Assembly (NCBI GenBank): GCA_029233965.1
Contig: JARGOP010000037.1
Span: forward strand, 1 to 46,178
Reading direction: 5' to 3'
DNA: 46,178 nucleotides
Source of the DNA: Verrucomicrobiales bacterium
Lineage (GTDB): Bacteria > Verrucomicrobiota > Verrucomicrobiia > Verrucomicrobiales > DEV007
Shown here: piece by piece, positions 43,281 through 46,178 of the stretch
How positions within the stretch are numbered: position 1 is the stretch's first letter
Layout of the letters: every line of letters starts with the position of its first letter
Program-made: the position numbers and the translations under genes
The notes under the pieces: generated by a model
The model's input: only the letters and a program-made list of their open reading frames with translations
Databases searched by the model: none
Told to the model about the DNA's origin: nothing

Positions 43281-45167
43281 TCATAAACTGCGGGAGCGAA
43301 CCTCATCGACAATTCGATTGGTGAATTCGTCGACGGGCATAGCCCCTTCGTCACCGCGGTCGCGGTGGCGAATGGAAACTTGATTCGATTCCTGTTCTTT
43401 CGCTCCTATAATTAACATATACGGAATCCTGTCGAGCTGAGCAAGCCGAATTTTCGCTCCGACCTTTTCATCTGCTTTATCGACTTTGACGCGAATCCCC
43501 TCTTTCCGGAGGGTTTCGTAGACGACATCAGCAGCATCGACAAACTTTTCGGAGATGGGAAGAATCCGCACCTGCTCCGGAGAAAGCCACGTGGGGAACT
43601 TGCCGGCGAAGTGTTCGATCAGGACACCGACAAAACGCTCCATCGATCCGAAAGGTGCCCGGTGAATCATGACAGGGCGATGCGTTGCATTGTCCGCCCC
43701 CACATACTCCAGTCCGAAACGCTCGGGAAGATTGTAGTCCACCTGGACCGTTCCCAGCTGCCACTCCCGACCAATCACATCCTTGACCACAAAGTCGATC
43801 TTCGGTCCGTAGAATGCAGCCTCCCCCGGTTCCTCCGCGAAATCGGTTCCGAGAGTCGTGGCCGCTTCCCGCAAGGCCTGCTCAGCACGATCCCACTTCT
43901 CACTGTCGCCAACATACTTGGTCGAATCCGGATCTCTCAGTCCGACGCGGACGCGGTAATCATCCATGCCGAGAGTGCCGAGAACAATTTTCACCAGCTC
44001 AAGACATCCCATGATTTCCTCTTTGACCTGATCCTCTGTGCAGAAGAGGTGGGCGTCATCCTGAGTGAATCCACGAACCCTCGTCATCCCGCCAAGCTCG
44101 CCGGATTGCTCCCAGCGATAGACCGTTCCAAACTCCGCCAATCGAACCGGAAGATCCCGGTAGCTGTGATGATTGCTCTGAAAAATCTTGATGTGATGTG
44201 GGCAGTTCATCGGCTTCAACATGAACCCGGCCACTTCACCTGACTCCAGCTTGTTCGACAATTCACCGCAGGAACAACCCTCGTCGGAGAGAACCTTCAT
44301 CGCCTCCCGCTCCGGGATCGGAGGAAACTGCGAGTCCGCGTAGTACGGAAAATGCCCCGAGGTCCGATAGAGATCGAGCTTACCAATGTGCGGCGTGAAG
44401 ACCTGGCTGTATCCCTGTCGCTCAAGATGCTCGCTGATGAAATTCTGCAGTTCCTGACGAATCACTGATCCGTTCGGCTTCCAGAGAATGAGCCCCTGCC
44501 CGACCGCTTCATCGATGTGGAACAGGTCGAGCTCTTTGCCGATCTTCCGATGATCGCGCTGCTTCGCCTCCTCAAGGCGCTCAAGGTGCTCAGCGAGTTC
44601 GGTCTTGTTTTTAAAGGCGGTGCCATAGACCCGCTGGAGCTGAGGATTGGCGGCGTCGCCTTTGTAAAAAGCACTGGCGACACTCATGAGCTTGTATGCC
44701 TTGCAGTTCCCGGTCCTCCCGACATGAGGACCGGCGCAAAGATCCCAGAAATCTCCATTCTTAAAAATGGAGATTTCCTCGTCCTCAGGAATATCGTTGA
44801 GAAGATCAATTTTAAACTGGCTGGGGGTGCTGCGCTCCGTCTCAGCGGCGAGGCGCCCTTTCTTTGCCATCTCCATCGCTTCCCCGCGACTCACGACCAT
44901 GCGCTCGAAGGGCTGATTCTCCTTCACGACCTTCTTCATCTCCTCCTCGATTTTTTCAAAATCATCAGACGAGATGCGGTGCTCCATATCCACGTCGTAG
45001 TAAAAGCCATTTTCGACCGGAGGGCCGGCCGCAAATTGAGCATCGGGCCAGATCCGGCAGATCGCCGTCGCAAGAACATGTGCCGTCGAGTGACGAAGGC
45101 GTTCAAGATCGGACATCTGATTGCGCTCATCGAGCGTCTTTCTGTGGTTTTCTGTGGAATCCGGCAT
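43281..45167 (-). CDS. thrS: Threonyl-tRNA synthetase lacking the TGS domain
   Basis: A 628-residue class-II synthetase that joins threonine to tRNA-Thr. The editing domain is present: HSTAH (His26, His30) and DLCAGPH. The catalytic core includes MLKPMNCPHHIKIF (zinc Cys), TRVRGFTQDDAHLF (His), the ATP-site HRAPFGSMERF (His) and a C-terminal anticodon-binding domain (VRILPISEKFVDAAD onward). The roughly 60-residue N-terminal TGS domain is missing, as the HxxxH lies near residue 26 rather than 73. An insertion of about 20-25 residues with CSC (GCSCGELSNKLESGEV) interrupts the catalytic domain before MLKPMNC. It leads the thrS-infC-HAD run. Confidence 0.95.
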   Translation of the reverse strand: MPDSTENHRKTLDERNQMSDLERLRHSTAHVLATAICRIWPDAQFAAGPPVENGFYYDVDMEHRISSDDFEKIEEEMKKVVKENQPFERMVVSRGEAMEMAKKGRLAAETERSTPSQFKIDLLNDIPEDEEISIFKNGDFWDLCAGPHVGRTGNCKAYKLMSVASAFYKGDAANPQLQRVYGTAFKNKTELAEHLERLEEAKQRDHRKIGKELDLFHIDEAVGQGLILWKPNGSVIRQELQNFISEHLERQGYSQVFTPHIGKLDLYRTSGHFPYYADSQFPPIPEREAMKVLSDEGCSCGELSNKLESGEVAGFMLKPMNCPHHIKIFQSNHHSYRDLPVRLAEFGTVYRWEQSGELGGMTRVRGFTQDDAHLFCTEDQVKEEIMGCLELVKIVLGTLGMDDYRVRVGLRDPDSTKYVGDSEKWDRAEQALREAATTLGTDFAEEPGEAAFYGPKIDFVVKDVIGREWQLGTVQVDYNLPERFGLEYVGADNATHRPVMIHRAPFGSMERFVGVLIEHFAGKFPTWLSPEQVRILPISEKFVDAADVVYETLRKEGIRVKVDKADEKVGAKIRLAQLDRIPYMLIIGAKEQESNQVSIRHRDRGDEGAMPVDEFTNRIVDEVRSRSL

Positions 45168-45352
45168 GGCTGAAAAGAACTGGAACGCTCAACGTACTTA
45201 TTTTGCGGCAATTACAAACGGGAATGCTGCCCGATTGAGTTTGAATCGAAAAAAACTGCAGGAGTTCAGGAGTTTTCATTCTCCTCGAAATAGCTCTTGA
45301 AACCGTCAGGAAAACGAGGAGGTTACCCGCCCTCACGTCGAGGATCTAACGA

Positions 45353-45426
45353 CGGGATGTAGCACAGCTTGGTAGTGCGCCTGGTTTGGGACCAGGAGGT
45401 CGCTGGTTCGAATCCAGTCATCCCGA
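45353..45426 (+). tRNA. tRNA-Pro (anticodon UGG)
   Basis: A 74-nt cloverleaf. The acceptor stem is CGGGATG / CATCCCG, followed by the discriminator A. The D-loop contains AGCTTGGTA, the anticodon arm CCTGG-TTTGGGA-CCAGG holds TGG, and the T-loop has TTCGAAT. CCA is not encoded. The last 16 nt recur in the two following repeat units. Confidence 0.95.
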
Positions 45427-45646
45427 TTCTTTCGCAACGCGAAAGCAAAAAGGAATCCACTGGATGAAGAACGCAGTTCGAGCCGGAGTCCCGCGCGCGG
45501 GACGGAGTCAGCCGAAGGCAATCCAGTCATCCCGATTCTTTCGCAACGCGAAAGCAAAAAGGAATCCACTGGATGAAGAACGCAGTTCGAGCCGGAGTCC
45601 CGCGCGCGGGACGGAGTCAGCCGAAGGCAATCCAGTCATCCCGATT
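45411..45646 (+). repeat. 109-bp tandem repeat that copies the tRNA-Pro 3' end
   Basis: Two identical 109-bp units (45411-45519 and 45520-45628) are followed by a partial third copy of 18 bp (45629-45646). Each unit begins with the last 16 nt of the tRNA-Pro gene (AATCCAGTCATCCCGA). Inside are a hairpin TTTCGCAACGCGAAA, an 11-nt palindrome ATCCACTGGAT and a perfect 16-bp palindrome GTCCCGCGCGCGGGAC. The third copy breaks off where an ISL3-type element begins. The arrangement looks like a tRNA-derived or att-like repeat. The function is unknown. Confidence 0.9.
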
Positions 45647-45650
45647 TTCC

Positions 45651-46178
45651 GGGTCTCCAACAAAGGTTGGGGACTTTTGTCTTGTTAACCGCACTCCGCG
45701 ATGACTCTCAAGCGGTAGTTTTCGAAGTTTTGGAAGCCGTATGTACGGCGTTGGATGAGCTTCCTCTTTCGATGGAAGCCCTCCGTGATCCCGTTGGATT
45801 TGGAGAAGCGCCACATCCAGACGATGGCTTCGTCCCAGTTGGCGAGGGTCTTGGCTAGCGTGACGATGGGAGCGAAGCCGCTCTCTTTGAGAGTGTCGAT
45901 GAGCTCCAGCAACTGAGGGATCAGCTTCCGGGCCTTGCGAGCGGCGATGTTCCTGGTTCTCATGAGTTGGTTGGTGTGTTGCATTTGTTGATCGATGGGT
46001 TCGAGGGCTGGATGATCGGCGAAGAGGCGCTCCAAGGTCGCTTTCTGTTTTGGGAAGAGCTTATCGGGATGAGTGCGAAGAGCGGCTGAATATCCGCGGT
46101 GGTTTTTGACCTCGGGCGCAATCTGGCGCACCAGGTCCATGAAGTGCTGTTGGATCACACGAATGACGTGGAAGCGAT
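45651..46178 (-). mobile_element. ISL3-type insertion sequence, right part outside the window
   Basis: An element inferred from its transposase gene. The left end is taken at about 45651 because the tandem repeat copy stops at 45646 and a possible terminal sequence (GGGTCTCCAACAAAGGTTGG) begins there. The other end and target duplication are not visible, so the boundary is approximate. Confidence 0.6.
45685..46178 (-). CDS. ISL3-family transposase, 5' end outside the window
   Basis: The C-terminal 164 codons or so of a DDE transposase. The frame is open to the edge, with upstream FHVIRVIQQHF matching the family's RFHVI stretch. The end has the ISL3 signature: NWDEAIVWMWRFSKSNGITEGFHRKRKLIQRRTYGFQNFENYRLRV, quoted here by key parts (SNGITEG and RRTYGFQNFENYRLRV). 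The internal GTG at 46158 is not the true start. The stop is at 45685-45687. Its presence marks insertion at the tRNA-Pro repeat. Confidence 0.85.
   Translation of the reverse strand, partial: RFHVIRVIQQHFMDLVRQIAPEVKNHRGYSAALRTHPDKLFPKQKATLERLFADHPALEPIDQQMQHTNQLMRTRNIAARKARKLIPQLLELIDTLKESGFAPIVTLAKTLANWDEAIVWMWRFSKSNGITEGFHRKRKLIQRRTYGFQNFENYRLRVIAECG

Follow-up and report, generated by a model that had tools for sequence, protein, structure and literature searches.

A TLR-type array downstream of tRNA-Pro(UGG) in Verrucomicrobiales and covariation between inverted T-arm copies and host tRNAs

In E. coli K-12, 22 tRNA-linked repeats (TLRs) are described at ten loci; they share 18-19 bp with the 3′ end of the tRNA or rRNA gene that precedes them (PMC8144298, cited here and below from an excerpt). 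The excerpt cites Egan and Landy 1978 and Rudd 1999 for these repeats, 1978 being the earliest description, and gives their function as not known, except for an sRNA role proposed for three rRNA-linked ones. It also proposes the copied 5S tail as an sRNA processing signal and reports that rrA/rrB/rrF bind Hfq and CsrA. The tyrT/tyrV repeat constitutes the Rfam family RtT (RF00391). The E. coli tyrTV record has the plan of the array studied here: its 178-bp units begin with the tRNA-Tyr 3′ end, followed by GGGGAAGGATGAGAAG and then GGTTCGACTCGAGCG. The Rfam structure pairs the inverted T-arm copy of this repeat, called antiT below, only with the downstream tail copy. Covariation is reported to reveal a tandem-GA motif in this family (PMC7657543 and PMC8250186, both in excerpt), and we take it to be the GA of GATGAGAA. 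RtT matches lie next to tRNA genes in Actinobacillus, and enterobacterial repeats include rtT-like sequences (PMC4986893 and PMC2965389, respectively, also in excerpt). A literature search, conducted largely outside subscription journals, met no report of such repeats in Verrucomicrobiota.

The array studied here belongs to an uncultured member of the Verrucomicrobiales and lies in a stretch of 46,178 nt that was analysed as a whole (the window). It follows a tRNA-Pro(UGG) gene at 45353-45426 on the forward strand (ARAGORN; Rfam tRNA model, 69.4 bits), which lacks an encoded CCA. The final 16 nt of this gene, AATCCAGTCATCCCGA (45411-45426), open every repeat unit. Two units of 109 nt (45411-45519 and 45520-45628) are followed by a partial third of 18 nt that amounts to a terminal tail copy (45629-45646), all on the forward strand. 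Units 1 and 2 are 100% identical (TRF score 472), and an exact repeat of 109 bases is not due to chance. The copied stretch comprises the 16 nt of the tRNA and two flanking nt, and is exact in both further copies. After the tail, each unit runs through hairpin 1 (CTTTCGC-AAC-GCGAAAG, evident in sequence and fold; 45429-45445 and again 45538-45554) to the antiT ACTGGAT (45459-45465 and 45568-45574; helix 1 of our alignment A3), which is directly followed by GAA. The P2 hairpin GAAC-GCA-GTTC comes next (45469-45479 and 45578-45588; helix 4 of A3), then a body bearing the GC-rich perfect palindrome GTCCCGCGCGCGGGAC (45488-45503 and 45597-45612), then the next tail. The antiT of unit 1 is complementary both to ATCCAGT within the tRNA (45412-45418) and to its tail copy (45521-45527). 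Our covariance model R1 (see below), for which this unit served as a seed, matches 45411-45482 and 45520-45591 with 67.3 bits each and the partial unit weakly, with 18.9 bits. The fold of the whole unit is not exceptionally stable (z -0.94). An earlier reading of this DNA (the sequence-only reading) had described two exact 109-bp units and a partial third, all of which open with the final 16 nt of tRNA-Pro(UGG), and had assigned to each unit a GC-rich perfect palindrome and two smaller ones. TRF and the coordinates above bear out this description. The 4.83-Mb, 151-contig genome contains no other long match to the 109-bp unit, which was rejected as a dispersed repeat on this result. A DNA pattern scan of genome contigs for the unit core gave no match. 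Given the 151-contig assembly, the copy number of the array may be a minimum.

On its 5′ side the tRNA gene adjoins a threonyl-tRNA synthetase gene (43281-45167, reverse strand), as it does in several relatives (L044-L046 and L050). The two genes are divergent in the window and co-directional, tRNA first, in other genomes. Among the matches listed, the closest to this synthetase was from a Verrucomicrobiales MAG, with 94% identity.

On the 3′ side the proposed ISL3 neighbour is indeed present: the C-terminal part of an ISL3 transposase, cut by the window end, occupies 45688-46176 on the reverse strand (PF01610, E 5.4e-28). An ISL3-like element end composed of a terminator-like hairpin and a T tract lies directly 3′ of the array (45651-45676, forward strand) and is probably a neighbour of the array, not a component. 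It was the only terminator-like hairpin in 45150-45760, where 0.9 were expected from shuffles; none of the array hairpins in that interval was listed as an intrinsic terminator. Elsewhere, 32 of 41 loci have a hairpin of -5 kcal/mol or lower in the spacer that separates tRNA and antiT, with a T tract in one of the 32. On both findings intrinsic termination was rejected as a general role of hairpin 1. By eye, the spacer hairpin of E. coli lysV and proK resembles an intrinsic terminator. The ISL3-like end motif has four matches at three places in the genome, all downstream of tRNA genes: window positions 45654-45674, contig C133 36841-36891 and contig C89 28487-28507. Those at Gln (two matches) and Val lie within about 110 nt of the tRNA, and that at Pro directly 3′ of the array, 228 nt from the tRNA. 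Two relatives (L036 and L038) also have tRNA-Pro followed by the same end. This ISL3 group may prefer tRNA 3′ flanks.

We inspected the DNA downstream of the 33 tRNA genes that the Rfam tRNA model finds in the window's genome, one of them cut by a contig end. Eight of the 33 have their own 3′ end repeated in the DNA downstream. The first tail copy has at most one mismatch in 16 for Pro(UGG), Tyr, Cys, Ser(UGA), Ser(GCU) and Ser(CGA); those of Thr(CGU) and Ser(GGA) are degenerate, with three mismatches. The units after the seven other tRNAs are equivalent to that of the window but have other sequences. Within this one genome, the common plan recurs after the tRNAs for Pro, Tyr, Cys and Ser and, weakly, after that for Thr. 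Four of the 33 tRNA genes (L057, L060, L075 and L162) stop within 40 nt of a contig end, which places any array there beyond assessment, and arrays perhaps disrupted the assembly at these breaks. The trailer of tRNA-Thr(UGU), at a contig end, starts nearly as does that of tRNA-Thr(UGU) in the relative G025, which has a tail copy. Among relatives, tail copies follow Pro (three anticodons), Ser, Cys, Tyr, Thr, Arg, Val and Glu tRNAs. Their occurrence is patchy even between close relatives: the Pro array is present in the window's genome and absent from G025. The word GCGAAGC, an unusually stable single-strand DNA mini-hairpin, recurs in unit hairpins and bodies (for example L076, L079 and L003), as raw sightings. 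No 5S rRNA gene was found in the window's genome, which is 96% complete.

In clear units, a reverse-complement copy of the T-arm, the antiT, lies 15-95 nt after the tRNA. Its usual form is GGATGAGAAC, and it varies with the T-stem of the host tRNA. The match often reaches into the loop (GATGAGAAC vs GTTCGAATC). Some units (Ser, Cys and Pro-GGG types) carry a near-exact reverse complement, and several arrays (Val, Glu, some Arg, Thr and Ser) have no clear antiT. To our knowledge of the TLR and RtT literature searched, much of it in excerpt, an inverted T-arm copy covarying with the host tRNA has no earlier description, and we consider it a new element of the TLR kind.

The seed of the covariance model R1 comprises 16 Verrucomicrobiales units that were selected because their antiT is clear, and no E. 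coli sequence. The 31 core rows were picked by eye, L071 being unusable and eight degenerate rows being excluded. L051, L067 and L262 were left out of alignment A1, and three Ser rows in which MAFFT had misplaced antiT were dropped to give A2. R1 was run on Verrucomicrobiota genomes and on 84 kb of E. coli K-12, namely 18 regions with tRNA and rRNA genes. In the latter it matches four tyrT/tyrV TLRs (E 4e-5 to 8e-4) and two proK TLRs (E 0.0015); nothing further appears below E 1 in the 84 kb, the next match having E 1.7. The arg, lys and rrn TLRs in these regions gave no R1 match. By eye, argV has the antiT AGGGAGGATAACG for the T-stem CCTCC and lysW has CGTGTAGGATAACG for CCTGC, while argZ, argQ, lysT and lysY have one mismatch in the antiT stretch and lysV retains the loop side only. 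Matches at E<=0.001 occur in 23 of 387 Verrucomicrobiota genomes, that of the window counted, and at E<=0.1 in 27 of 72 family genomes, both lower bounds because strict filters apply once a scan exceeds 40 genomes. Outside the window's genome the matches make up 24 arrays, of which 23 come immediately after a complete tRNA (Pro, Ser or Tyr). In 20 of these 23 a tail copy with at most three mismatches is found within about 330 nt. The 24th (L328) is preceded by a bare tRNA 3′ fragment. With the eight tRNAs above, these arrays substantiate the suggestion of a family that follows tRNA 3′ ends; such units are neither peculiar to this locus nor a spacer unrelated to tRNAs.

The correspondence between antiT and host tRNA was assessed in two ways. 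In a decoy test, the best complement of a tRNA's own 10-nt T-arm segment was compared with those of other tRNAs' T-arms in the same downstream DNA. With arrays defined by the tail copy alone, p<=0.05 was reached in 15 of 36 array loci vs 6 of 120 others (Mann-Whitney p 2e-6). The first run had given 18 of 41 vs 3 of 115, but its array set included five hand-added rows, and for four of these the antiT had already been seen when they were added. The test was non-significant in 21 of the 36 array loci, including the window (rank p 0.53), where the pairing of T-stem and antiT comprises seven bases. In a motif-anchored test, the sole guide to the site was the word GGATGA(A/G)(A/G)A, in which one additional purine was allowed, 12-125 nt downstream, and three variable T-stem positions were compared per row. 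The word occurs in 42 of 271 distinct tRNA rows vs none when reversed and three when reverse-complemented. Among the 21 rows not fetched by the model, 57 of 63 variable cells pair, compared to a mean of 40.4 and a maximum of 54 in 2000 shuffles. The 21 R1-fetched rows also give 57 of 63 (shuffle mean 32.7, maximum 46). All 42 rows together give 114 of 126 (mean 64.6, maximum 81), a count that leans towards pairing because half the rows were model-fetched. Seventeen of the 126 cells are non-Watson-Crick (5 U-G, 12 mismatches). Within Verrucomicrobiota, fully paired antiT exist for eleven different T-stem strands.

Alignments gave the same picture. The tail-antiT helix is 95.3% paired in the 16-row seed, picked for clear antiT, and 94.6% paired in A3, which comprises 87 matches (75 distinct) and is fitted to the structure. 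At the four variable pairs of this helix in A3, both partners have changed in 34, 26, 16 and 6 cells, respectively. The total for all helices of this structure-fitted alignment is 130 such cells vs 38.9 after shuffling (0/500 shuffles). As the tRNA tail and the tail copy are the same in sequence, covariation fits an upstream and a downstream partner alike.

Within arrays the units are homogenised. Identity between the first and the second unit reaches 0.95 or more in 14 of 19 arrays and ranges from 0.69 to 0.949 in the remaining five, while the window unit is 0.51-0.72 identical to the tRNA-Pro(UGG) units of ten other genomes. High identity within arrays and low identity between genomes are expected if recombination between tails homogenises the units, and the exact identity of the window units agrees with homogenisation inside arrays.

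The possible partners of antiT were compared by folding 33 of the 42 motif rows, those with a first tail copy and no N; many of them were R1-fetched, and R1 rewards the pairing. These energy-model folds ignore modifications, tertiary contacts and co-transcriptional order. In full precursors up to the first tail copy, antiT is predicted to pair with the tRNA T-arm (probability >0.5) in 27 of 33 cases and with the downstream tail in none. In the six others, E. coli proK included, it is predicted not to be on the T-arm either. On average, the native T-stem forms with a predicted probability of 0.70 when the tRNA is folded by itself and of 0.69 when the trailer is added as far as antiT; once antiT is included, the value falls to 0.11. 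The tRNA alone is folded natively (>0.5) in 23 of 33, the window tRNA-Pro reaching only 0.01. When the tRNA is removed, the predicted partner of antiT becomes the downstream tail copy in 24 of the 33 loci.

These predictions, together with a covariation that fits both partners, led us to propose a two-state trailer. The array would most likely be transcribed as the 3′ trailer of tRNA-Pro, and antiT would have two possible partners, the upstream T-arm or the tail copy that ends the unit. As long as the tRNA is unfolded or unprocessed, antiT could hold the T-arm. Once the tRNA is folded or cut off, antiT would instead pair with the tail copy of its TLR and so close the unit into a compact RNA whose 3′ end resembles that of a tRNA, and the terminal partial unit would provide the last antiT with a partner. 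Such a switch may serve to control processing or folding of the tRNA. Tandem copies would arise and be homogenised through unequal recombination between identical tails, which would always restore an intact tRNA 3′ end. That the window array is a TLR is well supported; to the full reading, a Verrucomicrobiales TLR that acts as a two-state trailer and whose tails recombine, we give an even chance.

Alternatively, the array may encode an RtT-like structured small RNA, in which antiT closes only on the downstream tail copy, the tail is a processing site and no upstream pairing takes place in cells. The Rfam RtT consensus closes antiT in just this way, the 24 of 33 folds obtained without the tRNA agree with it, the downstream partner accounts for the covariation equally well, and the copied 5S tail has been put forward as a processing signal (PMC8144298). 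However, the predicted partner in precursors is the tRNA T-arm (27/33) and never the downstream copy (0/33), and an RNA of this kind alone leaves the extension of antiT into the loop (GATGAGAAC vs GTTCGAATC) unexplained. We consider it a genuine possibility, if a lesser one.

The arrays could also be a functionless by-product: template switching at the quasi-palindromic T-arm would produce an inverted copy, and tandem duplication would follow. An inverted T-arm is the expected product of fold-back copying; moreover, some antiT are near-exact reverse complements (the Ser, Cys and Pro-GGG types above), arrays are patchy between close relatives, as the Pro array of the window's genome and its absence from G025 illustrate, and arrays homogenise. 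However, most motif-type units have GGATGAGAAC rather than the exact reverse complement GGATTCGAAC, both in Verrucomicrobiota and in E. coli, and pairing is retained although T-stems and unit bodies diverge. In two phyla GATGAGAA recurs where the exact complement would read GATTCGAA, which favours selection over neutral fold-back. We consider a neutral origin unlikely.

The 3′ ends of tRNA genes are common integration sites, and the sequence-only reading had considered a mobile non-coding element family or a site used by unknown machinery. A MITE- or REP-like element, or an attachment-site remnant that targets and restores tRNA 3′ ends, would be of this kind. The scan for integrases took, for each locus, only the longest open frame of at least 80 residues within 1.2 kb downstream, and sampled 41 of 42 array loci (one being a duplicate) and 29 of 92 other loci. 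A tyrosine-integrase match was found at 1 of 41 arrays vs 1 of 29 comparison loci, the latter being an impure set in which at least L331, L325, L309, L310, L313, L320 and L173 bear R1-type units with weaker or missing tails. Both matches are just below the Pfam cut-off (26.7 and 25 vs 27.1 bits), the first scoring 27.5 bits in a separate scan, and there is one DDE-integrase match (L337). On this comparison an integrase or attachment-site origin was rejected. PF00589 has no match on the window's contig (C114), in line with the sequence-only reading, which saw no integrase there. In favour of mobility, a tyrosine integrase gene of the same genome (L003, 1666-2994, contig C42) begins about 60 nt after the tail copy of tRNA-Tyr, and an R1 array stands behind a bare tRNA 3′ fragment (L328). 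At the tRNA-Tyr array, an element may have targeted the tail copy instead of the tRNA. At L328 and L299, only a 3′ portion of tRNA-Pro precedes the array, and unrelated DNA stands where the 5′ portion would be, which is what integration of an element within the tRNA gene would leave; L299 is possibly a contig or assembly effect. Against mobility, the units of one genome differ and the clear ones are matched to their own tRNA, and the exact unit is confined to this place in the genome. A portable element would not by itself show an antiT matched to each host tRNA. The common RNA plan and this match give no support to either suggestion of the sequence-only reading, and a mobile element is highly improbable. 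An assembly artefact would fit a fragmented assembly whose contigs break beside tRNAs but is barely credible, since R1 matches stand behind tRNAs in two single-contig genomes (G164 and G344) and in independent assemblies, and such repeats exist in the complete E. coli K-12 chromosome.

Returning to the two-state trailer, a further generalisation can be envisaged. TLRs could form a widespread cis-acting switch of tRNA biogenesis, in which the anti-T-arm of the trailer unfolds or holds back its own tRNA and the decoy tail copy releases it, tuned to the T-stem in at least two phyla. We regard this extension as rather doubtful. If true, array copy number would set the dose of antiT and decoy, and act as a copy-number dial on tRNA maturation. 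A stretch complementary to its own tRNA is in any case a testable clue to how TLRs work. With antiT, a curiosity first described in 1978 becomes the testable question of whether a trailer pairs with and controls its own tRNA. The covarying inverted T-arm also gives TLRs a searchable structural definition.

Finally, the array was compared with the systems introduced above. No Rfam family reaches its gathering score on the repeat in the window, where RtT (RF00391) has no match up to E 10, and RtT has none at its 45-bit gathering cut-off in 72 family genomes, with a best score of 29.5 bits. Two tandem full-length matches at this sub-threshold score lie on the tRNA-Ser array of a relative. RtT shares the antiT core, P2 and the closing tail copy with the Verrucomicrobiales units. 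The sRNAs rrA/rrB/rrF sit between T1 and T2 of E. coli rRNA operons, behind 5S rRNA (PMC8144298), and resemble the array in the copied 3′ end of an upstream stable RNA and a hairpin between tails (rrnB sequence). The closest counterparts are the E. coli TLRs themselves. Like the window array, they lie directly 3′ of a tRNA gene, with units that copy the 3′ end of the upstream RNA. Like the Verrucomicrobiales repeats, they occur in one to several copies at multiple loci per genome; the two units and a partial one of the window, in a genome where eight of 33 tRNAs are concerned, fall within one to five units per locus. The TLRs of tyrT, tyrV and proK have a locus-matched antiT with GATGAGAA or GTGAGAA and GGTTCGA, and those of argV and lysW have, by eye, the matched form AGGATAACG. 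In sequence and structure, the likeness is confined to the core, by which R1 recognises the tyrT/tyrV and proK TLRs. The window-type repeats differ in belonging to another phylum, in standing behind Cys, Ser, Thr and other tRNAs, in the sequences of their unit bodies, and in a window tRNA without encoded CCA. The feature is the TLR class already described in E. coli, here in Verrucomicrobiota, and since its plan stands there behind several tRNA species, the class is broader than the enterobacterial cases.
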